A stretch of 64,000 bases of DNA from an uncultured Pelagibacteraceae bacterium (GTDB taxonomy: Bacteria > Pseudomonadota > Alphaproteobacteria > Pelagibacterales > AG-422-B15), in assembly GCA_902524285.1 (NCBI GenBank), contig CABZCR010000001.1, positions 145,774 through 209,773 of the forward strand. Direction: 5' to 3'. The notes beneath the pieces are model-generated. The model did no database searches and was not told where the DNA came from. It saw nothing but the letters and a program-made list of their open reading frames with translations. Shown here piece after piece: positions 36,037-50,965 of the stretch (positions are counted from its first letter, which is position 1; each line of letters starts with the position of its first letter). The translations under genes were made by a program, and so were the position numbers.

Positions 36037-39000
36037 ATGACCAAAAAACTAATTCAGGCACTTGAACCACGCATGATGCTCGATGGAGCAGCAGTCGCAA
36101 CTGCAATCGACACCATCGACGATCTAGCAAATTTGAACAAGACTGATTTAGATAAAAAATCAAAAGAAAATAATTTTAAAACCGACCAAGATACAAAACT
36201 TCCATTTGTAAATCGAGAGGGCATTAATCAAAACACAAGAACAAAACAATTTGTATTCATTGACAGTGCAGTTGATGACATTGAAGTTTTAATTGAAAGT
36301 TTTGATGACCACACTGAAGTGCATATCATTCAAAGTGATGTTGATGGTTTTAAAGAAATGCAAAGCATTCTTTCTGATGAAAAAAACATTGATGGCATCC
36401 ATGTTATTGGTCACGGTAGTATTGGTCAGATAGCATTCGGCGATGCGATTTTAAATAGTGAAACATTAAATGAGTACAAACAAACGTTAAAAGATATTGG
36501 TGCAAGCTTAAGTGCTGATGGCGATATTCTATTCTACGGTTGTAACATTGCAGCTGATGAAAGTGGCGAGATTTTAATTAAGCAAATTGCTCAAATTACC
36601 GACGCTGATATTGCTGCATCAGACGATATAACCGGTAAGGGTGGTGACTGGGATCTTGAAAAGCATACAGGTATTATCGAGACTAAAAATATTGATGTTG
36701 AACACTATAATTATTCACTTGCTAACGATATAACTGAAACTAACACAAGTGTCATTAACCTTTCCTCTTCTGCAACCGACTTTAGGGCACAAGTTACTAC
36801 TGATGATACTAATAACAGAGGAGTGCAGGATACTACTTCAGATCGATTTATAATAGTCCAAGAAAGAGCAGATGTTAAAAGTGGTACAGGGGCCCTAAAC
36901 TTCGATGTCTCTGGAGCAAAAAGCTCACATACACCAAGTACGAGTGAGCCTGTTCATGTATATTTACTTTTCTCTAATGATGACACTAATAGTAACTCTA
37001 GACGAACTGGTAGTCGAGTAGGTGAAGTAACTTTTGATTATGAAATACTTGGCGTATTTGCGGAACCTGAAAATTTGATTGAAATGACAGGGGTTTCAAT
37101 GGATGGCGGGATTTATCCAACATTGGAATCAGATAAAATTGGTAAGAGGGAGTTGGAATACAAGAATGAAAATCCTCCGGGTGTAGAAGGGAATAAAGAC
37201 TGGTTTGCAATATCAAATGGCAACAAGACGATTAGAATTGGTACTAAAAATGGTGAGAAAGGTGACTTTATTCGTATTATCACGAGAGCACCAGTATCCA
37301 ATCCTGTCGTCGGCAACAATGATTCAGGTTACATTAATGAAGATGACATATTAAGTGTTCTTGATGGAGCAAGTGCAAATGATAGTACACCAGATACATC
37401 AGGCGAACATACAGGTGATGTATTGCTCAATGATACTGGTGGAGTTGCAAGTTTATACGTAAGTGCTATTGCCGGAGGATCTCTTGGTTCGCCAGTTGAT
37501 GGTACCTATGGACAGTTGACACTGTCTCCAAATGGATCATACAGTTATAACGCCAACAAAGATGCTGCTGATGCTCTAGATGCTGGCAGCCCAGGAGATA
37601 CAGAAACTGACACATTCACTTACACTGTAACTGATGGAACCACAACAGCTAACGCTACAATCACCATCACTATTGAAGGAGTAAATGATGCTCCTGTTGG
37701 AGTCGCGGATACTGGATCAGTCAATGAAGATAAACAGGTTACAGTCAGTGCAGGAAGTGGGGTTTTATCAAATGATACAGATGAGGACGGCAGTTCAAGT
37801 CTACAAGTTTCTGCTGTCGGAGGCAATGGATCAGCCGTTGGTCAAGATGTTACAGGATCTCTTGGTACTTTAAATTTAGATGCTGATGGATCTTACACCT
37901 ATATTGCTGACCAAGCTGGTGCTGATGCAATCACCGCAGGACAAACTGCAACAGATACATTTGCGTATACTGTTAGTGATGGCACAGCAACAAGCACCGT
38001 AAACTTAGTCATCACCGTTACAGGTGTCGGACCCGCTGCTGTCAATGATACTGATACCGTTGCTGAGAATGGTTCTCTTAATCGTAATGCAGCTGCCGGA
38101 GTACTTGACAATGACAATGATAATGCAGCAAAAGACTCTGAAAATTTAATTGTCACAGAGATCTCCTCCAACAGCACAGGAAACAGTGGTAATGCTACTC
38201 AAGGCGTACTTGGAACCTATGGTACCTTAACGGTTGCAGCTGATGGAAGTTACACATATATCGCAAATACTGCTGCAGCAGAGGCTTTAGCTGCAGGCGA
38301 TAATAGTCAAACTGATATATTCACTTATAAAATGAAAGATGATAATGGGGTCAACGAAGCTCAAGCCACTTTAACTATTACAATACAAGGTCAAGATGAT
38401 GATCCTGTCGCATCCGCAGATACAGGAACAGCCAACGAAGATGGACCACTAGTATCAGTTGCTGCTACTGGTGTTTTAGCCAATGATACAGATGTAGATG
38501 CCGGAGAAACGTTAGTGGTTTCAGCTGTTGGAGGTAATGGAGCAGCCGTTGGTCAAGATGTTACAGGATCTCTTGGTACTTTGAATTTAGATGCAGATGG
38601 ATCTTACACGTATATTGCTGACCAAGCTGGTGCCGATGCAATCATCGCAGGACAAACTGCAACAGATACATTTAATTATACTTTAAGTGACGGTGCAGGA
38701 ACAACAAGTACTGTGAACTTAGTCATCACGGTTACAGGTAAAGGACCACAAGGTGTTAATGATACAGCGTCGGTAGATGAGAATTCAACAGTAGCGAAGA
38801 GTAACGCCTCTACAAATGGGGTACTTTCCAACGATGATGATAATGCGATATACGACCAAGAAAGTCTTGAAGTAACTGCTATCACTGGAGCATCATCTGG
38901 AACAGTTGGAGGTGAAACAGCTGGTACACACGGTACTCTTACTATGGACTCGGATGGTACTTATTCTTATGAAGCAACCAACAATGCGCTGGATGAGGGA

Positions 39001-42000
39001 GAAACTGTTACTGATGTCTTCACTTACACAGTTAAGGATGATGATAACAAGAATGCAAGCACAGCAACCTTAACCATTACTGTTACTGGTAAAAATGATG
39101 ATATTACTGCGGTTGCAGATACAGATACAATAAGTGCTGGATCGACGATCACAAGAGACGAGGCATCAACGTTTGAATTAGATCACGATGATACTGACCC
39201 TGACGGCGATGATGTACCAGGCAATTTTATTATTACAAATATCAGACATGGTTCTGATGATTATAACCCTGGTCAAGAAATTACGACATCAAAAGGTAGA
39301 TTAACAGTCGATGAAAATGGTTCTTATACTTATGTAGCTGATCAAAGCGGTTCAACAGGCTTATCAAACGGTGCTCAAGCAACTGATGTCTTTACTTATA
39401 CAGTTCGTGATCATGCGAGCAGTCCAAATGATACAGATACTGCGACACTAACAATCACAATTACCGGTTCAAACAACAACCCACCTGTTGCAGATGCTGA
39501 TGGCAATGCTGGAACAGGATACATCCTAGAAGATCAAACATTGACAGTTACGAATGGTTCTACTGGAGAAACAGGATCTGACGGCAATAATAATAATGAA
39601 AGTGGAGATAATACGGGGGATGTGCTAGAAAACGACACCGACGCTGATGGACACACACTTACTGTTTCAGATATCTCGGGAGGATCAGTTGGCGCTAGTG
39701 GCGCAACAGGAACATACGGAACATTAACTATTCAAAGTGATGGTAGTTATACCTACAACGCAAACAATGCAAACTCGATAGCAAAAGATGCAACAGCAAC
39801 TGATGTCTTTACTTATACAGTCAGTGATGGCAATGGTGGGTTTGATACTGCCACAATAACCATTACTGTTTTAGGTGTGAATGATGCTCCAAGTGCAAGC
39901 AACGATACGAACGCCGTTGATGAAGATGCTACAGCATCAAAAAATGCTGGAGCAGGAGTACTTTCAAACGATAGTGATGCTGACACGGGTTCAAGCATGA
40001 CGGTGACAGGAATTACTGGAGCATCAGCAGGTTCAGTTGGTGGATCAACTGATGGAACTTATGGTACTCTGACTCTCAATTCTGATGGCAGTTATTCTTA
40101 TACTGCTGACAAAACAGCTGCTGATGCACTGGCACATAACGCAACGGCTAATGATGTATTCACTTATACGGTTACAGATAATGAGGGAGCTACTGCTACG
40201 GCAACTCTGACCATCACGGTAACCGGTAAGGGGCCTGTTGGTTCAGCAGATACAGCTACAGCAACCGAAAGTCAGACATTAACAGTCAATGAGGCAGATG
40301 GAGTATTAACAAATGACTCTGGTGGAGATACGGAAAGTCTCGCCGTTACAAATATTGAGTCAGGTGGTACGGGTAATACAGGCACTGCTGGTCAAGGTGT
40401 TTTAGGTACGTATGGTACTTTAACTATTGCAGCTGATGGAAGTTACACATACACACCAAACACAGCTGCCGCAGAGGCATTGGATGCAGGTGATACTGTT
40501 ACCGAAGTATTTACTTATACTGTAAAGGATGATGACGATAAAAACTCATCCACTGCAACGCTTACCTTTACAATCAATGGAGCAAACGATGCAATTGTTG
40601 CCGTTGATGATACAGATAGTGTTAACGAGGATGCAACGGTTACAAGATTAATTAGTGATGACCAAGAACTTGATCATGATGACACAGATGTTGATGGGGA
40701 TGATACAAGTGGAAACTTTACAATTACAGATATCAGAACTGGTCCAAAGGATGGAACTGGAACTGATGGTACAGTTGGTGTGGCACTCACTGGTGAATTT
40801 GGAACTCTTACTGTTAATGCAGATGGTTCGTATACCTATGTTGCTGATCAAGATAAATCTGATCAATTGTTAACAAACCAAACAGGAACCGATATATTTA
40901 CATACACAGTAAGTGATGGCACTGCAACGTCAACCGGACAACTAACGTTCACTGTGACAGGTATCAATGATAACGATCCAGTCGCTGTTGATGACACAGA
41001 TACTGTTAAACGTGACTCGTCAATTACCCGAGATGCTGGTTCAGCATTTGATATTGACTCTGATGATACTGACAACGATGGTGATACTTTGACAATTGCC
41101 GCGGTTCGTACAGGTCAAGCTGAAGGCGGAGGCAAAGGTGGCAGTAGTTCCGTTGGGTCGACGCTTGTGGGCACTTACGGTACGCTCACTTTAAATAGTG
41201 ATGGTAGCTATACATACTCAGCAGATCAGGATGCCGCGAATAGCTTAAAAAGAGGTGACAGTGCTATTGATTATTTCAACTATACTGTTACCGATGGAAG
41301 TAGAACAGATACTGGAGTAATTGCATTTACAGTTGAGGGTATAAGTGATCCACCTGAGCCAGTAAACGATGTTTTAGAAGTCGATGCGGCTGCAACAGCA
41401 TCTAAAAATGCAGCTCAGGGAGTATTAATAAATGATACCGATCCAGACGGAGATACTTTATCTGTAGATAGCATTAGAACTGGTCGTGAAAATAAAACAG
41501 GCACGTCAGGAACAATCGGCACAGCTCTGTCTGGAGCATACGGTGATCTTACAATGAATTCTAATGGTAGTTATGAGTACAAGGCAAACAATGCTGGACG
41601 ACTTAATCCCGGGGAAACAGCCATAGATTATTTCACTTATACAGCAACTGATGGCGATTCCTCTGTTGAAGCTCAAATTGCAGTGACAGTCACTGGTATA
41701 AATGACCCACCTGAAGTTTTATATCCTGTCCAAGATCCAAATACAGTTACTGGAGCATCAATCGTTATTAAACACAAACAGATTTTTGATGATCCAGATA
41801 GTGGTATTTACGACATTGCAGAATACAAGATTATTGATCCTGATAGTGGTGCAGAGACAAGTCTTCCAGAGGGTCTTAGACTAAAACAAAATAAAATTAC
41901 TGGATCGATAAGCACACCAGGAGTGTATATAGTAACTATAAGAGCAATAGACGGTGCAGGTCTATACGCTGATCATACTTTTACAATTACTGTGAATCCA

Positions 42001-43083
42001 AAACCAGGTGAAATTGCAGAGAACGAATTTATTAATGAAGAGATAAACCCTTACACTGAAACAGTTGTAATTAAACCTAAGAAAGATTATTTAGCGGCAA
42101 TAAAAGAAACAATTAACGAAGTATCAATCAGTGATGAGGGGTTCTCACTTGATACAGTTTCAATTGCTGATACAGCGTCTCTATCAAAACCTTTAAAATT
42201 TAATGGCGGATTAAGGTTAATGGATGCTGTTGCAAATGAAGTTTCCGGGGATTTAGCATCTGATTTAAAAGTTGGCGTTAAATTAAATGATGATAATCAA
42301 AAAAATGTTGAGCTATATTCAGGCCAGCTATCAAACGGTGAGGCATTGCCTGAATGGATCAAAGTCAATCCTGAAACAGGAGAAACAACAGCAGACATGC
42401 CTGAAGGGGTTGATGCAGTTGAGGTTCAATTAGTTGCTCTTGATAAAGATGGGAATACAAGGGATATCAACATTATTTTAGATAAAGCCAAAATTAAAGG
42501 TGACCAAGATTTTACGAGAGGCGCTGTCGATCAAGCAAGAGTAGTAGTTGATAATGACTCAAACGTTAATTTGATTAGAGAAAATAATAATTCTTCCGGT
42601 AATGCTACTAACAATAATTTAAATGCTCAAACAGACTTTGAGGGCACAATGAAGATAAGCAGTCTTCAAATGGACGCAGGCCAATACACTATAGATGTAA
42701 TTGATGACAACCAACCAAATGTGAAAATTTACAAAGCAGAGTTAAAAGGTGGTGGCTCTCTTCCTGATTGGATTACAATTGATCCTGAAACTGGAAAAAT
42801 TGCAGCTGACCCTTCAAAAGGTAGGACAGGCTTAGCAGCTCCAGCATTCTTAACTGAAAGCCTTCAAGTTCTTGAACTAAAAATTATTGCTGAAGACGAA
42901 GATGGAAAAGAGAGAGTTATTGAAGTTGAGATTGATCTTAATGAAGTGATAGGAACTGAGTCTAATGAGGAAAATTCTGCAACAAACGATGAAATCTCCT
43001 TTATTCCACTTGATGAACAATTAAAACTACATGCTAAAGCAGCAGATAGCTATGGCGAAAAGATTGTATCTCTAGTAAGTTAA
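36037..43083 (+). CDS. Giant DUF4347/VCBS-repeat adhesin with N-terminal LEPR motif
   Basis: A 2348-residue surface protein with no Sec signal. The N-terminus MTKKLIQALEPRMMLDGAA is the LEPR-type motif found at the start of many giant exported proteins. Residues about 70-230 are DUF4347 with HVIGHGSIG (His126) and ILFYGCNIA (Cys169). Residues about 420-1887 hold twelve VCBS/cadherin-like repeats of about 122 residues, with conserved GTYGTLT, DGSYTY and DVFTYTV strands and many acidic Ca2+-type loops. One further cadherin-like domain follows (1888-1990), then a C-terminal tail with two LPEWIKVNPETG/LPDWITIDPETG modules. No RTX nonapeptides are visible. It is followed by three adaptor genes with gaps of 11, -4 and 0 bases. 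Confidence 0.9.
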   Translation: MTKKLIQALEPRMMLDGAAVATAIDTIDDLANLNKTDLDKKSKENNFKTDQDTKLPFVNREGINQNTRTKQFVFIDSAVDDIEVLIESFDDHTEVHIIQSDVDGFKEMQSILSDEKNIDGIHVIGHGSIGQIAFGDAILNSETLNEYKQTLKDIGASLSADGDILFYGCNIAADESGEILIKQIAQITDADIAASDDITGKGGDWDLEKHTGIIETKNIDVEHYNYSLANDITETNTSVINLSSSATDFRAQVTTDDTNNRGVQDTTSDRFIIVQERADVKSGTGALNFDVSGAKSSHTPSTSEPVHVYLLFSNDDTNSNSRRTGSRVGEVTFDYEILGVFAEPENLIEMTGVSMDGGIYPTLESDKIGKRELEYKNENPPGVEGNKDWFAISNGNKTIRIGTKNGEKGDFIRIITRAPVSNPVVGNNDSGYINEDDILSVLDGASANDSTPDTSGEHTGDVLLNDTGGVASLYVSAIAGGSLGSPVDGTYGQLTLSPNGSYSYNANKDAADALDAGSPGDTETDTFTYTVTDGTTTANATITITIEGVNDAPVGVADTGSVNEDKQVTVSAGSGVLSNDTDEDGSSSLQVSAVGGNGSAVGQDVTGSLGTLNLDADGSYTYIADQAGADAITAGQTATDTFAYTVSDGTATSTVNLVITVTGVGPAAVNDTDTVAENGSLNRNAAAGVLDNDNDNAAKDSENLIVTEISSNSTGNSGNATQGVLGTYGTLTVAADGSYTYIANTAAAEALAAGDNSQTDIFTYKMKDDNGVNEAQATLTITIQGQDDDPVASADTGTANEDGPLVSVAATGVLANDTDVDAGETLVVSAVGGNGAAVGQDVTGSLGTLNLDADGSYTYIADQAGADAIIAGQTATDTFNYTLSDGAGTTSTVNLVITVTGKGPQGVNDTASVDENSTVAKSNASTNGVLSNDDDNAIYDQESLEVTAITGASSGTVGGETAGTHGTLTMDSDGTYSYEATNNALDEGETVTDVFTYTVKDDDNKNASTATLTITVTGKNDDITAVADTDTISAGSTITRDEASTFELDHDDTDPDGDDVPGNFIITNIRHGSDDYNPGQEITTSKGRLTVDENGSYTYVADQSGSTGLSNGAQATDVFTYTVRDHASSPNDTDTATLTITITGSNNNPPVADADGNAGTGYILEDQTLTVTNGSTGETGSDGNNNNESGDNTGDVLENDTDADGHTLTVSDISGGSVGASGATGTYGTLTIQSDGSYTYNANNANSIAKDATATDVFTYTVSDGNGGFDTATITITVLGVNDAPSASNDTNAVDEDATASKNAGAGVLSNDSDADTGSSMTVTGITGASAGSVGGSTDGTYGTLTLNSDGSYSYTADKTAADALAHNATANDVFTYTVTDNEGATATATLTITVTGKGPVGSADTATATESQTLTVNEADGVLTNDSGGDTESLAVTNIESGGTGNTGTAGQGVLGTYGTLTIAADGSYTYTPNTAAAEALDAGDTVTEVFTYTVKDDDDKNSSTATLTFTINGANDAIVAVDDTDSVNEDATVTRLISDDQELDHDDTDVDGDDTSGNFTITDIRTGPKDGTGTDGTVGVALTGEFGTLTVNADGSYTYVADQDKSDQLLTNQTGTDIFTYTVSDGTATSTGQLTFTVTGINDNDPVAVDDTDTVKRDSSITRDAGSAFDIDSDDTDNDGDTLTIAAVRTGQAEGGGKGGSSSVGSTLVGTYGTLTLNSDGSYTYSADQDAANSLKRGDSAIDYFNYTVTDGSRTDTGVIAFTVEGISDPPEPVNDVLEVDAAATASKNAAQGVLINDTDPDGDTLSVDSIRTGRENKTGTSGTIGTALSGAYGDLTMNSNGSYEYKANNAGRLNPGETAIDYFTYTATDGDSSVEAQIAVTVTGINDPPEVLYPVQDPNTVTGASIVIKHKQIFDDPDSGIYDIAEYKIIDPDSGAETSLPEGLRLKQNKITGSISTPGVYIVTIRAIDGAGLYADHTFTITVNPKPGEIAENEFINEEINPYTETVVIKPKKDYLAAIKETINEVSISDEGFSLDTVSIADTASLSKPLKFNGGLRLMDAVANEVSGDLASDLKVGVKLNDDNQKNVELYSGQLSNGEALPEWIKVNPETGETTADMPEGVDAVEVQLVALDKDGNTRDINIILDKAKIKGDQDFTRGAVDQARVVVDNDSNVNLIRENNNSSGNATNNNLNAQTDFEGTMKISSLQMDAGQYTIDVIDDNQPNVKIYKAELKGGGSLPDWITIDPETGKIAADPSKGRTGLAAPAFLTESLQVLELKIIAEDEDGKERVIEVEIDLNEVIGTESNEENSATNDEISFIPLDEQLKLHAKAADSYGEKIVSLVS
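37300..41700 (+). repeat. Twelve VCBS-type repeats in the adhesin gene
   Basis: Twelve in-frame repeats of about 330-400 bp, each encoding one cadherin-like domain. DNA conservation is low overall, but the stretches 37840-37962 and 38551-38673 (711 bp apart, 123 bp each) differ at only about five positions, showing recent duplication or gene conversion between the second and fourth repeats. The third and ninth repeats also share a closely similar core. Confidence 0.85.
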
Positions 43084-43094
43084 TAAACACCTTT

Positions 43095-43814
43095 ATGAAC
43101 AAAATTGTAACATTTGCGGTAACAGCGTGCTGCATATTATTGCCTTATAATTTGTCAGCAGAAGAATATTCTACACGTGTTTTAGTAACTGCAACCGAAG
43201 AGGCAACACTCTCAAGTGAACTTGCTGCAAAAGTTGAGTCAATTCCAATTGATGAAGGATCTGAATTTAAAGAGTCTGATATTTTAATTAAGTTTGATTG
43301 TTCATTCTTTGAAGAACAAAGAAAAGTTGTTGAAGCACAATTAGAAAGTGCAAGAGTAACTCTAAAGAGCAATCAAGACCTTGCCTTGATGAGATCCATT
43401 GGTGAGTATGAGGTTCAATTATCAGAAATCGATGTAAAGCGTGCAGAAGCTGAATTACAGATTGCTAAACTCAATACAGATCGATGTATAATTACAGCCC
43501 CTTATGATGGCAAAGTATCCAAAGTGTTTGTAAACGAGTTTGAAAGTATTGAAAGGCAGCAGCCGTTAGTTGAAATCATTGGATCTGGCATTCTTGAGGC
43601 CAAACTGATTGTTTCAAGTAAATGGCTGGCTTGGATTGATGAGGGTTATCCAATGAAAATCAGTATTGATGAAAATGGACAAACATATAGCGCCAAAATT
43701 CATACCATTGGCGTAGATATTGATCCTGTTAGCCAAACAATCGACATTACTGCAAAGTTTGATGAAAATTATGATACATTACTGCCAGGCATGAGTGGGA
43801 CAGCAACGTTTTGA
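43095..43814 (+). CDS. Periplasmic adaptor (HlyD/RND membrane-fusion protein), short
   Basis: A 239-residue protein with a signal peptide (MNKIVTFAVTACCILLPYNL then SAEE), so it is exported or membrane-tethered. The biotinyl-lipoyl-like halves are present (TLSSELAAKVESIPIDEGSE and CIITAPYDGKVSKVFVNEFE), separated by one coiled-coil hairpin (residues about 75-120), then a beta-barrel segment ending PGMSGTATF. It lacks the membrane-proximal domain of full RND adaptors. It is the first of three adaptor genes after the adhesin and should bridge inner-membrane components to the TolC-like duct. Confidence 0.85.
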   Translation: MNKIVTFAVTACCILLPYNLSAEEYSTRVLVTATEEATLSSELAAKVESIPIDEGSEFKESDILIKFDCSFFEEQRKVVEAQLESARVTLKSNQDLALMRSIGEYEVQLSEIDVKRAEAELQIAKLNTDRCIITAPYDGKVSKVFVNEFESIERQQPLVEIIGSGILEAKLIVSSKWLAWIDEGYPMKISIDENGQTYSAKIHTIGVDIDPVSQTIDITAKFDENYDTLLPGMSGTATF

Positions 43815-45148
43815 ATGATAATACTTCAATAAAAATAGCAAGATTAATTACTCTTGAGAAAAAATTTCGGACAGCAGAAAACTTATCCGAACTCGGATTC
43901 GTTTGTGCAAATGAGTTAAGAAGTGTTGTTGATTATAATTTTTTATTTTTTCTCACAAGATCTGCTACAGGCCGACAGAAAGTCCAAACAATTTCGGATA
44001 TTTCAGTCGTTGATAGAACTGCGCCGACAGTCACATTTGTTGAAAGATTAATAAATAAAAAGAAAGTTGAAACGGGAGTTTTTTCAGAAGTTTCAATTAG
44101 TGATTTAAGAGAAGATGGTTCAAATTTAGACTTACCTGACAATTTTCCAAATGAATTAATGGTTGTCCCGTTAATTTCAAGAACAAAGGGCGACTTAGGT
44201 TCTCTAATTATTGTACGATCTGCTAAAGTTTCAAATACAGAAAAAGAACTGCTGCAGCACATTGCTGAAACATTCAGTCATGCATTAGACTCATTTTTAT
44301 CTCAAGGATCGATTTTATCCTTTTTTGGTAGAATTTTTTCAGGTTGGTTAAAGTGGTTAATATTATCAGCAATCGCACTTGCAATGTTTATGCCAATTAA
44401 TATATCCGCAGTGGCTCCAGTTGAGGTTATCGCTAAAAATCCCTCAGTTGTTACATCACCAGTGAATGGTGTAGTGAAAAAAGTATTAGTAAACACCAAT
44501 GATGTTGTTGATGTTGGCATGGAGCTTATAAAATTAGATGATCTCAATTTTAAATCTCAATACGAAATTAACTTACAAGAATTAGAAGTTGCTGAAGCAG
44601 AATTACTAAGGGCTAAACAATCCTCATTTACAAATGATGAGGCAAAAGCAAAACTCGTTGAACTATCAACTGAAGTTGCTTTGAAAAAAAAGCAAGTCGC
44701 TTATGCTGAGGAACAATTAAAATATTCTGTCATAAAAGCGGAGGTTTCGGGCGTTGCTGTTGTTGAAGATTTTATTGATTGGCAAGGTCGTCCTGTAAAT
44801 ATAGGTGAAAAGATACTAACTATTGCAAATTCAGACGATATTGAGTTCTTAATTTACCTGCCGACAAAAGACTCACTCTTTATTGAAAAATCAGCAAGAG
44901 TTAAGGTTTTTTTAGACAGCAGCCCACTTAGCTCAATTGAAGGAAAAATATTAAGAACTTCTTACAAACCTGAATTAACAGCTGAGAATATTTTAGCTTA
45001 TAAAATACACGCTAGCCTTGAGGATAATATTGAGCCGCCGCGTATTGGATTACGAGGATCTGCAAAAATTTACGGAGATCGGACATCTCTTTTTTATTAT
45101 ATCTTTAGAGTTCCAATTAATATCAGCAGACAGTTTTTAGGAATATAA
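43811..45148 (+). CDS. GAF-like domain fused to a HlyD-type adaptor
   Basis: Starts at TTG overlapping the preceding stop (TTGA); no suitable ATG exists in frame. The 445 residues divide into a cytoplasmic GAF-like domain (about 10-165; LGSLIIVRSAKVSNTEKELL is the typical end), one transmembrane helix (about 180-198), and a periplasmic HlyD portion. The HlyD portion has two lipoyl-like halves (VTSPVNGVVKKVLVNTND; SVIKAEVSGVAVVEDF) around a coiled coil, then a barrel. It would couple a cytoplasmic signal to adaptor assembly. The next gene begins on the following base. Confidence 0.82.
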   Translation: MNDNTSIKIARLITLEKKFRTAENLSELGFVCANELRSVVDYNFLFFLTRSATGRQKVQTISDISVVDRTAPTVTFVERLINKKKVETGVFSEVSISDLREDGSNLDLPDNFPNELMVVPLISRTKGDLGSLIIVRSAKVSNTEKELLQHIAETFSHALDSFLSQGSILSFFGRIFSGWLKWLILSAIALAMFMPINISAVAPVEVIAKNPSVVTSPVNGVVKKVLVNTNDVVDVGMELIKLDDLNFKSQYEINLQELEVAEAELLRAKQSSFTNDEAKAKLVELSTEVALKKKQVAYAEEQLKYSVIKAEVSGVAVVEDFIDWQGRPVNIGEKILTIANSDDIEFLIYLPTKDSLFIEKSARVKVFLDSSPLSSIEGKILRTSYKPELTAENILAYKIHASLEDNIEPPRIGLRGSAKIYGDRTSLFYYIFRVPINISRQFLGI

Positions 45149-47257
45149 ATGATTGTACCGTCTATTCGACAAGATTTGAAACTCAGTGAGGGGCCAAAGA
45201 AAGAGGACGGCTCAGCGTCATGGCTTCTTTATGATTCATTAAGAAATAAATACTTTTCAATAAATAAAAAAGCATTTGATCTTCTTAAAAATTGGTCAAG
45301 TGGAATTGAGACCACAGAATTTATTGAAAAAATTAAAAAAAGTAATTTGTCTATTACACAAGAAGAAATTGAAGAATTTATCAGTTTTCTAAATCTTAAT
45401 AATTTAACTATTAAAAAAACAAGTGATGAAGTTAAATCCTTGGTTGTTCAAAAAGAAAAACTTAACAAGCATTGGCTGTTAAAAATTATTCATAATTATT
45501 TGTTCTTTAAAATTCCTTTATTTAAACCAGGAAATGGTCTTGAAAACAGTTTACCTTTTGCATTGTTTCTTGGATCACAAACCAGCAGACTTATAATTTA
45601 TATTCTGGGGATCATTGGTATTTTTTTAACAATCCAAAACTATGAAACATTTTTAACAACATTTTCTTATTTCTTTAATGTTAATGGATTGATTTTGTTT
45701 GGTATAACGATTGTTTTTGTAAAAGCCTTACACGAACTTGGGCACGCATATGTTGCCACTTATTATAAATGCAAAGTTTCTTCAATTGGCCTTGCAATGC
45801 TGGTTTTTTTCCCCTTCTTGTACACAGATACAACCGATGCTTATAAATTAACTGATCATAGAAAACGCTTACTGATTAATTTTGCCGGCATGCTGACTGA
45901 AATGCATCTTGCCCTTCTTGCTACATTTGTTTGGGCTGTAAGCCCTGAAGGCGTTATCAAAAGTGCTTCATTTTTTATTGCAACTTCAAGCTGGATATCA
46001 TCACTTCTTATTAATATTAGCCCGTTTATGCGATTTGACGGTTACTATGTGCTCTCAGATTTTCTTAAAGCGGAAAATCTTCAACCGCGCTCTTTTGCTT
46101 TAGGTCGATGGCAGATTAGAGAATGGATCTTTGGATTTAAATTCCAACCACCGGAACAACTCATGAGTCAAAGACGGTGGACTTTCATCATTTACGCTTG
46201 GATGACATGGATATATCGCTTCTTCATATTTATCGGAATTGCCTTATTAGTCTATTATTTAACATTCAAAATTCTTGGAATAATTCTGTTCATTATTGAG
46301 ATTGTTTGGTTCATTTTACTACCAATTTGGAGAGAAATTAAACAGTGGTGGGGACTTAGAAGGTACATGCGCTTTAATTGGACTTCATTGAGATCAATTT
46401 TTATTTTTTCATTATTTTTGGCAGCAATGTTAGTACCATGGCGAAGTTCACTCAGTCTTCCTGCGTTGATTGATCGAGGTGAAGTAGTCGATATCTATCC
46501 AACAGAAGCCTCTGAGATAAAAGAGATTTTTGTTATTTCAAATCAACAAGTCGAAAAGGGTGACTTATTAATTACAATGATGAGTCCGTCTTTATCAAAT
46601 AAAGTTGATAAAGCAATTGAGCGCGTAAAGATGATACAGCAAAAACTAGATCGTCGAATTGGATCAGAGGCTGATATGAGTAATCTCATGGTATTGGAAA
46701 ACCAATTAAAAGTAGAATTTGAAATTCTTAAAAGTCTTAAAGAAGAAAATGAAAATCTATCAATTTATGCACCAATGAGCGGGGTAATAAAAGACCTTAA
46801 GTATTTAAATAATGGACAGTGGGTGAATATAAAAGAAAAATTATTTTCTATTGTTCAATTTAATGACACTAAAGTTGTTGCATTTATAAGCGAGAATGAT
46901 TTGGACAAGCTTGAAGGTAATACAAGCGGCTATTTTATTCCAAAAAACAATGAATTTGATGAAGCAGAAGTTGTCTTAGTTTCACAAAATAATTCATCAA
47001 CTGAAGAACTTCCCTACTTATCATTAGTATCCACTTTTGGTGGATCAATTGCATCACGTGAAGTTAAGGGAGATGGAAAAGTTGTTTATCGACCAGAAGA
47101 AGCTTTGTACCAGCTTAATTTTTCTACTAGTACAGAAGTTGAGACTGTTCAATGGCAAACAGCAGGTAAAGTAAAAATTCAGACTGAAAACTATAATATT
47201 TTTCAAAATTTATTTAATCTGATTTCATCAACGTTAATCAGAGAAAGTGGATTTTAG
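45149..47257 (+). CDS. M50-type membrane protease fused to a HlyD-type adaptor
   Basis: A 702-residue protein. The N-terminal 100 residues resemble a PqqD-like domain (LLYDSLRNKYFSINKKAFDLL). A multi-span M50 core follows, with the zinc motif HELGH (His195-Glu196-His199) inside a helix and the third ligand region NISPFMRFDGYYVLSD (Asp297). Further spans follow to about residue 430, then a periplasmic HlyD part with LPALIDRGEVVDIYPTEASE, a coiled coil and YAPMSGVIKDLKYLNNGQW. Catalytic residues are intact, so intramembrane or juxtamembrane proteolysis is expected. It ends directly at the 3' end of the tRNA-like gene on the other strand. Confidence 0.88.
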   Translation: MIVPSIRQDLKLSEGPKKEDGSASWLLYDSLRNKYFSINKKAFDLLKNWSSGIETTEFIEKIKKSNLSITQEEIEEFISFLNLNNLTIKKTSDEVKSLVVQKEKLNKHWLLKIIHNYLFFKIPLFKPGNGLENSLPFALFLGSQTSRLIIYILGIIGIFLTIQNYETFLTTFSYFFNVNGLILFGITIVFVKALHELGHAYVATYYKCKVSSIGLAMLVFFPFLYTDTTDAYKLTDHRKRLLINFAGMLTEMHLALLATFVWAVSPEGVIKSASFFIATSSWISSLLINISPFMRFDGYYVLSDFLKAENLQPRSFALGRWQIREWIFGFKFQPPEQLMSQRRWTFIIYAWMTWIYRFFIFIGIALLVYYLTFKILGIILFIIEIVWFILLPIWREIKQWWGLRRYMRFNWTSLRSIFIFSLFLAAMLVPWRSSLSLPALIDRGEVVDIYPTEASEIKEIFVISNQQVEKGDLLITMMSPSLSNKVDKAIERVKMIQQKLDRRIGSEADMSNLMVLENQLKVEFEILKSLKEENENLSIYAPMSGVIKDLKYLNNGQWVNIKEKLFSIVQFNDTKVVAFISENDLDKLEGNTSGYFIPKNNEFDEAEVVLVSQNNSSTEELPYLSLVSTFGGSIASREVKGDGKVVYRPEEALYQLNFSTSTEVETVQWQTAGKVKIQTENYNIFQNLFNLISSTLIRESGF

Positions 47258-47331
47258 TGGTGCCCCTAGCTGGTTACGCTCCAGCGGCTGATCATTACCA
47301 ATGACCTGCTTTACTATTAAGCGATAGGGGC
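47258..47331 (-). tRNA. tRNA-Thr(GGT)-like gene with atypical D and T loops
   Basis: Read on the minus strand, 74 nt fold into a full cloverleaf: acceptor GCCCCTA/TAGGGGC (7 bp), D stem GCTT/AAGC, anticodon stem GGTCA/TGATC (one G-T), anticodon loop TTGGTAA (anticodon GGT, Thr), a 4-nt variable region, T stem GCTGG/CCAGC, then A-CCA encoded. The D loop AATAGTA lacks the GG pair and the T loop is AGCGTAA instead of TTCRANN. It may be an odd but functional tRNA, a non-translational tRNA or a decaying copy. The CCA end abuts the stop codon of the M50-adaptor gene. Confidence 0.65.
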
Positions 47332-47332
47332 T
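47294..47332. repeat. Direct repeat, left copy (putative att core)
   Basis: 39 bp identical to 50918-50956. It contains the tRNA-like 5' acceptor strand, D arm, anticodon stem 5' strand and anticodon loop. Here the rest of the tRNA follows, so this copy completes the gene. Confidence 0.9.
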
Positions 47333-47384
47333 AAATATTTCTGCGTCTTATCAATAACTTACAAACCTAAATTTGTAAATTTTT

Positions 47385-47425
47385 TGTAGGACACACCTAG
47401 GACACAAATCCAATTATTCACGGGA
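47385..47425. repeat. Inner direct repeat, left copy (putative arm sites)
   Basis: 41 bp matching 50765-50805 with three mismatches; the last 28 bases (from 47398) are identical. It contains two tandem TAGGACACA units, resembling arm-type binding sites of a tyrosine recombinase beside an attachment core. The remainder of the 298-bp gene-free stretch (47258-47555) shows no other feature. Confidence 0.75.
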
Positions 47426-47555
47426 CATCGCTTGTGCTTTAACTTACTGTTTTATTTAAACATTTATACTTACTTAAATTTTAATGAATGGATAAAATTA
47501 TTTTTCATATTACTTATGCAAAATGTTTACGCGGACTCTCTTACAATTACTCTAA

Positions 47556-48581
47556 CTAATGAAATGTGCTTGTGAGTCTCTCATACTCTTCAGATTGTCT
47601 TTGAAGCCATAAATCACGATAACCCATTCCTGAAGCAGCATCAAAATCTATGTATTGATAAGCATTTGAAAGTTTGGAATTTAAAACCTTCAATACAAAT
47701 TCTTTATTCTTCAGTAATTCTGTATCTATTAATTCTGTCATGAATTCACTATCAAATGCTCTACTTCTGTTGCATTGATTAATGGCAGTAAAGATGACTT
47801 CTGGATCACTTCGAAACGAATCATCCATATATTCCAGAGAGTACATTGTTCCAGTCTCAAATGATGCGATCAAAATCTCTTTATCCAATTTAAAATTTTT
47901 GTGAATATACATGTAATTAGAGTCATATGTTTTAACTGCGAGTAATGTTAATTCCTTATCTTTTTTTAATTCAACACTTATGCTTTCAAATATTTTTGGA
48001 GCATACATTATAAGTTCTTTAACAAGATTTTTATCATTAAGAAACTTTCTTATAGGTGAATTTTTTTTAATATCAGGGCATGCACCCAATCTATGTACTT
48101 TTGATATTTTTTTTGTTTTTTTTATAAACTGTTGCAAGCCAAAATTTATTAATTTTTTATCATTACAAACTATCTTGCCTGCAAAGAAAACTATCACAGG
48201 ATTTACTTCTATTGCTTTTTTAATAAAGCCTTTATCATCTAAAATCTCATCAGGATAAAATTCTATTCCATAATGATCAATCCAATCTCTATTTCTTTTT
48301 TTTAAATCGTGAAAATAAATATTTTTATCTAAATAATATTTTGATTTTGATTTTTTTAAAAATCTAATGTTCTCATAGGTTACTATTTCACGTATAAAAT
48401 AGTAATCATTTAAAATCTTATCTGTCAGTTTTTTTGTTAGAATATATAGTCCTGCACTTCTTTTACCAAGAGCTCTCATTACTTTGATATCATTCAAATA
48501 CTCTGGAAAATCTTTATTAAAGTTACTAATGTCAATGTAATCATTATTTTGTAGTTTTAGAATTAAATCTTTTTTATTCAT
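47556..48581 (-). CDS. DUF4116-like repeat protein
   Basis: A 341-residue, lysine- and asparagine-rich soluble protein. It contains repeated helical units of the DUF4116 type, for example KKDKELTLLAVKTYDSNYM then KNFKLDKEILIASFETG and RSDPEVIFTAINQC, each about 35-45 residues. Such repeats are seen in protists, giant viruses and some bacteria and have no known function. The start overlaps the nuclease-like gene upstream by eight bases. It is the distal gene of the inserted element and ends near the left inner repeat. Confidence 0.6.
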   Translation of the reverse strand: MNKKDLILKLQNNDYIDISNFNKDFPEYLNDIKVMRALGKRSAGLYILTKKLTDKILNDYYFIREIVTYENIRFLKKSKSKYYLDKNIYFHDLKKRNRDWIDHYGIEFYPDEILDDKGFIKKAIEVNPVIVFFAGKIVCNDKKLINFGLQQFIKKTKKISKVHRLGACPDIKKNSPIRKFLNDKNLVKELIMYAPKIFESISVELKKDKELTLLAVKTYDSNYMYIHKNFKLDKEILIASFETGTMYSLEYMDDSFRSDPEVIFTAINQCNRSRAFDSEFMTELIDTELLKNKEFVLKVLNSKLSNAYQYIDFDAASGMGYRDLWLQRQSEEYERLTSTFH

Positions 48582-49686
48582 TGATTAATTTCCTTATTTC
48601 ATCAATCTTAATTCTATTATCATTTCCACTAACTTTATCTGAAAGTTTAATTAATATTTCTTTTAGATGAATGATATCAATATCAAAGAATTCTCTGTTT
48701 TTATTTACTCTATTTTTTTCAAGTATCTTATGGACTGATTTTTCGTAATATTCTGCATCTTTCATTTCATAGGACATTTCAACTTTAAATGGATGAAGAT
48801 GACCTGTGCCAGTTAGTTCTTCTGCTCTTTCTTCTGGTAGACCATAAGTTGAACCAATTTTGTAAACGCCTGGATAAGCCTTATTAGACATTACATAAAT
48901 AAATCCTACGTTTGACGCTTTTTCATGTTGTTTTATTCTTGATCTTTGTATCAGCTCAATTTTTCTTAATACTTTTTCGTTCTCTATGATTTTTTCTGAT
49001 GCTTGTTCTTCAAAGTTAATAGGGATTTTGACTGTATGTATTGAAAAGCATTTTAAATACTTTGAAAGCATATTGCTTGATTGAACACTTATTTTATCAT
49101 AATTCCCAACCATATAACCTAATTGACCAGCATGAAATTGAAACACAGGTAAACGAGCATCTTTGTTTAATACTTGCTCGTAAATATTGCCCATCCAAGT
49201 AACTCCAAAGTTATTTTTATTATCAGCAAGATCATTGTGATAATCAATTTTATAGTTTTTGATTTGAACACTATGAAGTTCATGCTCTGTATTCATAGTT
49301 TCTAAAAAAAACTTTTTTGAAGAATGGTCTAGCTCTCTAATTAATGCAGTTATCTGTTGTGCATTCTTATAGAAACTTAAGTCATTAAATTTAATGTCTA
49401 TCTCTTTGACATTTCGAAATGATAGTATCTTAATGGCTATCTCATTGTCACTTTTTACACTTATCCTTGCATTACGATTGAAATCTTCAACCATATTATT
49501 ATTCAATGTTTTAATTTTCTTTTTATATTCATCAACAAGTTCTATAAATGATAGATATTTGTCTTTAAGGTTATCTAAATCGATATTTAGTTCTAATAAT
49601 TCATTTACTTCATCGATTAGATCCTGATCTGAATAGCTTTCGTATTTTGATAAATTTAGTTTATTTTTGGATCTTCTATAGTTCAT
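48574..49686 (-). CDS. T5orf172/GIY-YIG-superfamily protein
   Basis: A 370-residue protein. The C-terminal part (about residues 265-350) has VGFIYVMSNKAYPGVYKIGST, the GIY-YIG-like core, then ERAEELTGTGHLHPFKVEM and a conserved REFFD, matching the T5orf172 domain of phage and mobile-element proteins. The N-terminal 260 residues are charged and partly coiled coil, with no clear family. It may cut or bind DNA. It is the only gene of the inserted element with a mobility- or defence-related domain. Confidence 0.75.
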   Translation of the reverse strand: MNYRRSKNKLNLSKYESYSDQDLIDEVNELLELNIDLDNLKDKYLSFIELVDEYKKKIKTLNNNMVEDFNRNARISVKSDNEIAIKILSFRNVKEIDIKFNDLSFYKNAQQITALIRELDHSSKKFFLETMNTEHELHSVQIKNYKIDYHNDLADNKNNFGVTWMGNIYEQVLNKDARLPVFQFHAGQLGYMVGNYDKISVQSSNMLSKYLKCFSIHTVKIPINFEEQASEKIIENEKVLRKIELIQRSRIKQHEKASNVGFIYVMSNKAYPGVYKIGSTYGLPEERAEELTGTGHLHPFKVEMSYEMKDAEYYEKSVHKILEKNRVNKNREFFDIDIIHLKEILIKLSDKVSGNDNRIKIDEIRKLINE

Positions 49687-49692
49687 TCTTAT

Positions 49693-50637
49693 TTACTCAA
49701 AAGGCCAATCTTTCCAATAGGATTTATTATTACTACTGATTAAAGGTTTGTTTATAAATGTTGCTGTTCCAATCTCAAATAGATTACCCTTCTTTGCTAA
49801 GCTATGGATCATTTCTGATGTATCGCTTTTAGGTGATTTTCGAAGAATAGTTTTCACTCTTTTTTTTGCTTCAACCAAATAATTTTTGAATAGAGGCACA
49901 TCATTTACAAAGTGTGTTCTTTTTTTAGTATTCTTTTTACCCCTACAAACCAAACTATCCTTTAACAGCTTTGTAGTTTCATCACATACTTCGATAATAT
50001 CCCAAGGATAACACTGAGGAGTAAAGGAATCTAGAGAGTCTAAAAATATAAAATTAAATAATGCCTTATTAAATTTACCACTATGTTTTTTGACAACTAC
50101 GAAATCTTGGATTGTTGCTCTATTATTAGGAAAATTTATCATCTTGATAAGATAGCTATTTTTAGAATCTATTTTCAGATTTATATATAGTAAGTTTGGG
50201 TAGTCATTTTTTAAATTCTGTTCACAAACAGAGAAGAAACAAATTTGTGAAAGTTCAACAGATGAGAAATGGAGTATATCGTAAATATCGTACATACTTT
50301 CTCCGTTGTATTCATCAATAAACCCATTAGAGCAGACATTTGCTACATAGTCAGGATCAAGATCAGGGGGACAAAAAGCACTTAGCACGTCAATTTTAAG
50401 GCGTGTAAGACTATAAAAATTATCGTAGTCAAAATCTTCGTATTTTATTTTACCCTTATATTTTTTGCTCTGATATTTTCTTAAATTACTATCCAGAATC
50501 TTTTGTAATTTCTTTTTATCTAAGAATTTAGATATATCTTTTTTTGTTTTGATCTTATTCTCTGTAAGCCATGTGTGGACTTTGAACAAATCGTATTCGT
50601 GTTCGTCAACAAAGTTATCAATATCATTTTTTCCCAT
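49693..50637 (-). CDS. Unknown protein of the inserted element (314 aa)
   Basis: No family is recognised. A soluble, lysine/aspartate-rich protein with an acidic and aromatic middle (EDFDYDNFYSLTRLKIDVLS), several cysteines (CPPDLDPDYVANVC; CFFSVC) and a basic C-terminal third (RGKKNTKKRTHF; AKKRVKTILRKSPK). There is no signal or membrane span. It is the first gene of the three-gene minus-strand unit, six bases before the T5orf172 gene, so the two may work together. Confidence 0.6.
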   Translation of the reverse strand: MGKNDIDNFVDEHEYDLFKVHTWLTENKIKTKKDISKFLDKKKLQKILDSNLRKYQSKKYKGKIKYEDFDYDNFYSLTRLKIDVLSAFCPPDLDPDYVANVCSNGFIDEYNGESMYDIYDILHFSSVELSQICFFSVCEQNLKNDYPNLLYINLKIDSKNSYLIKMINFPNNRATIQDFVVVKKHSGKFNKALFNFIFLDSLDSFTPQCYPWDIIEVCDETTKLLKDSLVCRGKKNTKKRTHFVNDVPLFKNYLVEAKKRVKTILRKSPKSDTSEMIHSLAKKGNLFEIGTATFINKPLISSNNKSYWKDWPFE

Positions 50638-50764
50638 TGGATAACTTTATATTAGTTAAACTAAAAGACAATTTCGTTTACAAACCCCCCTATATGTACA
50701 GTTATCAAGTTCATCATGTATAAAATTAAAATTGTTTAATTAATCTAGCAGTTATTACTAAATT

Positions 50765-50805
50765 TCTAGGACACAAATAGGACACAAATCCAATTATTCA
50801 CGGGA
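50765..50805. repeat. Inner direct repeat, right copy (putative arm sites)
   Basis: Matches 47385-47425 with three mismatches, including two tandem TAGGACACA-type units, in the same orientation. It lies in the 328-bp gene-free stretch 50638-50965, in which I see only this repeat, the outer repeat and A/T-rich sequence. Confidence 0.75.
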
Positions 50806-50917
50806 TATTATCACTCTATCGAACAGTAAGGCAAAACCTCAGTTATTCTGCAGTTTGCAGACCATAATGAATTATTTTAAAAGTCTCAGGAAATAGGCAG
50901 ATACCGTCAATACATTT

Positions 50918-50956
50918 ATTACCAATGACCTGCTTTACTATTAAGCGATAGGGGCT
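50918..50956. repeat. Direct repeat, right copy: orphan tRNA 5' half
   Basis: Identical to 47294-47332. On the minus strand it begins ten bases after the ABC permease stop and runs through the anticodon loop; the following bases do not form the 3' half of a tRNA. It is therefore a truncated tRNA and the probable original 5' part of the insertion site. Confidence 0.85.
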
Positions 50957-50965
50957 TAATAGAAG

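Follow-up and report, generated by a model that had tools for sequence, protein, structure and literature searches.

The locus considered here raises the question of whether a tRNA gene whose D- and T-loops both depart from the standard form is a working gene or the relic of one. It lies in the genome of an uncultured Pelagibacteraceae bacterium, in a 64-kb stretch of DNA that was analysed as a whole (the window), and is very probably a working, apparently the only, tRNA-Thr(GGU) of this AG-422-B15-family member of the Pelagibacterales, with alternative elbow contacts, and an integration hot spot as well. The gene and its parts are the following.

47258-47331, minus strand: tRNA-Thr(GGU) gene with encoded CCA (Rfam RF00005, GTDB conservation, stem covariation)
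47312-47318, minus strand: D-loop AATAGTA, with A18 replacing G18 and G19 kept (sequence)
47297-47299, minus strand: anticodon GGU, in the loop UUGGUAA at 47295-47301 (sequence)
47274-47280, minus strand: T-loop AGCGTAA, with A54, G55, C56, G57 and U58 (sequence)

The gene is 74 nt long and on the minus strand its 5' part reads GCCCCTA TC GCTT AATAGTA AAGC A GGTCA TTGGTAA TGATC, continuing in the 3' part with AGCC GCTGG AGCGTAA CCAGC TAGGGGC A CCA. The stems are of 7 bp (acceptor), 4 bp (D), 5 bp (anticodon, with one G-U pair) and 5 bp (T); in standard numbering the D-loop is A14 A15 U16 A18 G19 U20 A21 and the T-loop is A54 G55 C56 G57 U58 A59 A60. The earlier note, which gave no strand, had described the stems, the TTGGTAA loop, the CCA, the two loops and the pairing of C56 with a D-loop G, and is right in every detail. 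Among the gene-finding checks that it proposed, the Rfam tRNA model RF00005 matches over the full length with 50.9 bits (gathering score 29; E 5.7e-08 in the window) and is the sole Rfam match in the 64 kb, and ARAGORN reports no tRNA at 47331-47258. Because ARAGORN does report a phage tRNA-Thr(GGU) with the identical two loops, another feature, perhaps C9 in place of A9, contributes to its miss. The 3' end of the gene adjoins the stop codon of a convergent M50/HlyD-type gene (45149-47257), and a promoter scan of the window gives no match to a sigma-70-type promoter directly upstream of the tRNA. The region 36037-47257 codes for a 2348-aa repeat-rich protein, probably surface-located or secreted, followed by HlyD- and M50-type genes, and resembles a secretion locus.

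Threonine identity in tRNA rests on G1-C72, C2-G71, G34, G35 and U36. All of these are present here and are invariant in the alignment of relatives, in which the anticodon belonged to the search pattern for most rows; U33 and the 7-nt anticodon loop are also invariant. The gene shares with canonical bacterial tRNA-Thr(GGU) the cloverleaf, the GGU anticodon, A73, the encoded CCA and the T8-A14 and G19-C56 pairs, and its anticodon loop UUGGUAA is that of most alphaproteobacterial tRNA-Thr. It differs in having a 4-nt variable loop, A15 with C48 in place of the standard Levitt pair, A18 for G18, G55 for T55, and A54/T58 for T54/A58, such that in the elbow G19-C56 is kept, the G18-Psi55 site reads A18/G55 and the T54-A58 site reads A54/T58. 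Both G18-Psi55 and T54-A58 are regarded as nearly universal contacts. A review of the tRNA elbow (PMC4810234) calls Psi55 universally conserved.

Twenty-five GTDB species records contain the 74-nt sequence unchanged, and a search for the same loops, as the earlier note suggested, finds the loop pair AATAGTA/AGCGTAA around the UUGGUAA anticodon loop in 50. Besides the 25, these comprise five near variants, a single intermediate (L158) and 19 records of a second type. The 19, one of which is titled HIMB59-MED-G10, share one version, with the window gene's loops but with changes in each of the four stems, and in both types the stems all remain paired. The pattern used for the GTDB scan fixed both loops, and wider searches that left the loops free found the same loops in every allele of the window's kind (type A, AATAGTA/AGCGTAA). 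A match of the scan in Candidatus Omnitrophica has no D-stem pairs and is due to chance. Among ten distinct tRNA-Thr(GGU) sequences of relatives, 99.5% of stem cells are paired and 17 of the 21 stem pairs have changed on both sides; none of 500 shuffles reaches the observed stem covariation, and slid structures are 27-43% paired. Within the genus, a first search found the sequence identical, or differing only before G1, in 20 other genomes; among 43 genomes, 27 carry type A, 11 carry an allele with the T-loop GTCAGTA (type B), and five, which are incomplete, carry neither. Type A also occurs in other genera of the family (G060, G063, G083 and G100), in some with identical sequence. As read from the alignments, this pattern is one of purifying selection on an unusual tRNA rather than of decay. 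The earlier note's proposal of a real non-canonical tRNA, against which loss of the cloverleaf in relatives would have told, is supported by loops that are invariant in two lineages and by a cloverleaf kept through compensatory changes in all four helices.

Changes at the same elbow positions are seen in other cellular tRNAs of the order. In the complete tRNA sets of four Pelagibacterales genomes, 114 tRNAs are G18/T55. ARAGORN finds four exceptions, each of them A18/G55: Val(GAC), Phe(GAA) and Thr(GGU) in G048, and His(GUG) in G036. In two of their D-loops (AGGAGTA and AGGTAGTA) an earlier GG precedes A18, and position 18 was counted back from A21. Searching for A18 with a GCTC D-stem gives about 130 tRNAs in 85 Pelagibacterales genomes, all of them with G55, and no tRNA in 286 genomes of other Alphaproteobacteria; three class-level A18 matches outside the order are not tRNAs. 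The Pelagibacter tRNA-Val(GAC) has exactly the D- and T-loops of the window gene, with a different anticodon, different stems and a 5-nt variable loop. The tRNA-Thr(GGU) of other Alphaproteobacteria is canonical except for C55 in several families (T-loop TCCGATT, e.g. G369, G386, G317 and G351), and the one other AGCGTAA case among them (G304) matches the HIMB59-type records. Four elbow combinations are thus represented in the order's own tRNA-Thr(GGU): canonical (G036), A18/G55 with T54-A58 (G048), G18/T55 with G54/G58 (type B and much of the second family), and A18/G55 with A54/T58 (type A).

The loops could have arisen by neutral drift after streamlined marine bacteria lost their elbow-modifying enzymes, being neither selected nor imported. 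TrmFO is above cut-off in none of ten genomes, its weak matches falling in frames of some 620-640 codons, a length that fits MnmG, and TruB, the Psi55 synthase (Pfam PF01509), has no match in G048 and G042, two complete Pelagibacter genomes that also carry A18/G55 tRNAs. However, TruB is found in the window's genus and in the HIMB59-type genome, both of which have this tRNA (and in G036 too); drift would not leave the loop bases unaltered in two lineages whose stems have changed; and phages, which use host enzymes, show the same combination. We consider drift an unlikely explanation, though one with some claim to attention; modification loss may have eased elbow change in some lineages, and by itself leaves this tRNA unexplained.

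The phage tRNAs in question come from IMG/VR contigs with large tRNA arrays, in which tRNA-Thr(GGU) genes with AATAGTA/AGCGTAA and tRNA-Thr(GGU) genes with GTCAGTA T-loops are present; both T-loop forms are shared by phage and mobile-element arrays with the order's tRNA-Thr(GGU), from whose array counterparts the window gene differs in standing alone on a chromosome and in being the sole isoacceptor. ARAGORN predicts 1181 tRNAs in 144 IMG/VR stretches, and the coupling of elbow positions was assessed in 226 distinct tRNAs with a 4-bp D-stem and a 7-nt D-loop (in which positions are fixed), with the loop pairs used for searching excluded. A18/G55 is found in 29 of these, A18 with another base in one, G55 with another base in four, and neither in 192 (Fisher p 3.7e-31, relatedness ignored). 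The other pair behaves similarly, with A54/T58 in 17, A54 with another base in four and T58 with another base in none (Fisher p 3.8e-22, relatedness ignored), and A54/T58 is associated with A18/G55 (odds ratio 5.9, p 0.002, relatedness again ignored). Positions 18 and 55 accordingly change together across independent tRNAs of both cells and phage arrays, and the co-variation of 54 and 58 in phage tRNAs fits the earlier note's remark that the reverse-Hoogsteen pair looks as if it were swapped. The exact loop pair AATAGTA/AGCGTAA recurs in 33 different phage-array tRNAs, covering 15 isoacceptor types, and is therefore a general module, not a threonine feature; the swapped contact set, hardly known from cells, is common in bacterial viruses.

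For the window tRNA itself, an exact search of IMG/VR for the 5' half found nothing, the IMG/VR phage Thr tRNAs with the same loops have stems that are not close to it, and among named phages there is no close match. A tRNA-Thr(GGU) on one IMG/VR viral contig (L217) is one base off that of the Pelagibacter genome G042. In some arrays (L209, L210, L211 and L214) the 19-56 pair also seems to be exchanged, as A19 with U56 or U19 with A56, and 25 of 40 phage-array tRNAs with A18/G55 and A54/T58 have A15 with C48 and no standard Levitt pair, as does the window tRNA.

The 5' half of the gene is repeated further along the window, on the far side of a small island with these features.

47294-47337, minus strand: attachment-type repeat, copy 1, the tRNA 5' half through the anticodon loop (44-bp direct repeat)
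47383-47428, no strand: inner repeat with paired TAGGACACA motifs, integrase arm-site-like (46-nt direct repeat, 91%)
47556-48581, minus strand: cargo gene, DUF4116 (Pfam PF13475)
48574-49686, minus strand: cargo gene, T5orf172 / MUG113 domain (Pfam PF10544; PADLOC PDC-S57)
49693-50637, minus strand: cargo gene of no known family (no match in Pfam, PADLOC or PHROGs)
50763-50808, no strand: inner TAGGACACA repeat, second copy (direct repeat comparison)
50918-50961, minus strand: attachment-type repeat, copy 2, a left-over tRNA 5' half beside an ABC permease gene

The two 44-bp copies are 98% identical and bound an island of 3.6 kb (47338-50917) with the three cargo genes, none of whose proteins is an integrase. 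Two other genomes, G032 and G033, have the same island ends, including the paired TAGGACACA arrangement of the inner repeats, and different cargo, so that, as at an integration site, a direct repeat of part of a tRNA bounds a variable insert. The equivalent island of G032 is 8.5 kb long and codes for a PLD/SNF2 helicase and an Eco57I-type methylase, which are defence-like. Recombination at the anticodon loop would leave behind a copy of the tRNA 5' half such as that seen around the 3.6-kb island. In G031, an element of about 9 kb with a tyrosine integrase (L131:2580-4178 with L199:5800-5835) splits a type B tRNA within its anticodon loop (shared ATTGGTAA); immediately ahead of its integrase gene the element carries a complete tRNA-Thr(GGU) of a third type with another unusual T-loop. 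This element shows one way in which unusual tRNA-Thr alleles can replace one another, and type A may have arrived through replacement by an element of this sort. The identical type A gene is followed at its 3' end by an M50 gene, a prolyl oligopeptidase gene, a glutamine-synthetase-like gene (named from its sequence alone) or others, and in other species it is type B that stands beside the prolyl oligopeptidase gene.

The arrays and the G031 element would also suit an account in which the alternative elbow is an escape of phages or mobile elements from host enzymes or nucleases that read the standard elbow, and was taken over by cells later. Such an origin would agree with the spread of the loop pair over 15 isoacceptor types in phage arrays, with an integrase-bearing element that splits a resident tRNA-Thr and brings its own, and with the presence of the identical tRNA in several unrelated genomic contexts and several genera, but other phage tRNAs of the same arrays keep the standard elbow. 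We know of no host enzyme of the kind that it requires, and escape from host enzymes seems to us quite improbable.

Whether the cell depends on this tRNA was addressed in the window's own assembly (G000, 69% complete) and in a congener (G020, 99% complete). The earlier note had asked for a canonical tRNA-Thr(GGT) elsewhere in the genome; none was found in either assembly, G020 shows a single Thr(GGU) gene, which is of the present type, and there is no second Thr(GGU) among the other 24 tRNAs of G000 or the other 30 of G020, both of which sets include Thr(UGU). Of the 1072 threonine codons in 44 long open reading frames of the window, 500 (about 47%) are ACU or ACC, and since no other Thr(GGU) is found in G020 or the bacterium's own genome, this tRNA should have to decode them; it would be charged with threonine and would read ACC and ACU. 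A pattern search found no Thr(GGU) in five genomes of the genus that are 54-90% complete, so the gene may be dispensable in some, and Thr(UGU) might read all four ACN codons.

A tRNA specialised outside translation, for example one that donates its amino acid to cell wall or lipid and binds EF-Tu weakly, might be expected to have two loops as unusual and as perfectly conserved as these, and the earlier note had likened the gene to the cell-wall tRNA-Gly of staphylococci. That likeness appears unsupported, as this is the only Thr(GGU) found in G020 and the bacterium's own genome, its codons are common, and the same loops occur in phage-array tRNAs for many amino acids and in the Pelagibacter tRNA-Val(GAC). 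EF-Tu contacts the T-stem and acceptor stem of a tRNA, and both are ordinary here, leaving a non-translational role with very little probability. The least credible explanation is a decaying copy or insertion relic, as the earlier note had also proposed: the neighbouring island does come with a truncated copy of the gene's 5' half, but that copy is a separate one at 50918-50961, and decay is refuted by a sequence identical in 25 species records, with loops invariant in two lineages and compensatory stem changes in all four helices.

In the preferred reading, that of a working tRNA with alternative elbow contacts, the D- and T-loops would still dock through an alternative contact set in which G19-C56 is kept. 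A18 would dock on G55 in the way that G18 docks on Psi55, and A54/U58 would close the T-loop in place of U54-A58, with purine 57 still stacked between; that bases 18 and 55, and 54 and 58, touch is a prediction. The elbow would thereby form with neither the uridine that is usually methylated at 54 nor the one usually converted to pseudouridine at 55, and T54 methylation and Psi55 formation are presumably absent because their target uridines are gone. The gene was probably obtained from a phage or another mobile element.

There is artificial precedent for parts of this arrangement. Doyon, Zagryadskaya and Steinberg are said to have selected, in 2004, 'specific purine trap' tRNAs from libraries with randomised D- and T-loops in E. 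coli, in which the purine at 18 reportedly has to be G with U55 and A with G55; the title reportedly mentions normal tRNAs too, and natural A18-G55 cases may be listed there. The 18-55 coupling of these tRNAs is exactly that of the window gene, but they are suppressors with U54-A58, whereas the window gene is conserved, the sole isoacceptor and A54/U58. In suppressor tRNAs with altered 54-58 pairs, G54-G58 can reportedly replace U54-A58 (Zagryadskaya, Doyon and Steinberg 2003, NAR 31:3946, a paper cited in PMC7912444). The G54-G58 combination occurs naturally in the sister allele, type B, with its T-loop GTCAGTA; A54/U58 is not known to be an outcome of that selection. A search of a limited set of literature returned no description of natural A18/G55 coupling, of non-canonical T-loops in phage arrays or of Pelagibacter T-loops. 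The A18/G55 coupling was reportedly anticipated by artificial selection; neither its natural, conserved use in a sole cellular isoacceptor nor its connection with phage tRNA arrays was found described there.

More speculatively, and with no great likelihood, there may be a second coherent 'elbow code', consisting of A18/G55 with either T54-A58 or A54/U58 and lacking the T54 and Psi55 modification sites, that arose or was maintained in phage and mobile-element arrays under pressure from host systems that target tRNAs, and was taken over by abundant marine bacteria, where it serves in the only tRNA for an anticodon.

A tRNA finder such as ARAGORN can miss a sole isoacceptor of this kind, so that a decoding tRNA falsely seems to be missing from such genomes. 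The alternative elbow is conserved in dozens of marine species and common to phage tRNA arrays, and a cell relying on a tRNA without G18-Psi55 and T54-A58 offers a natural experiment on the elbow contacts that translation requires, on the modifications that it can do without, and on the reason why many phage tRNAs differ.
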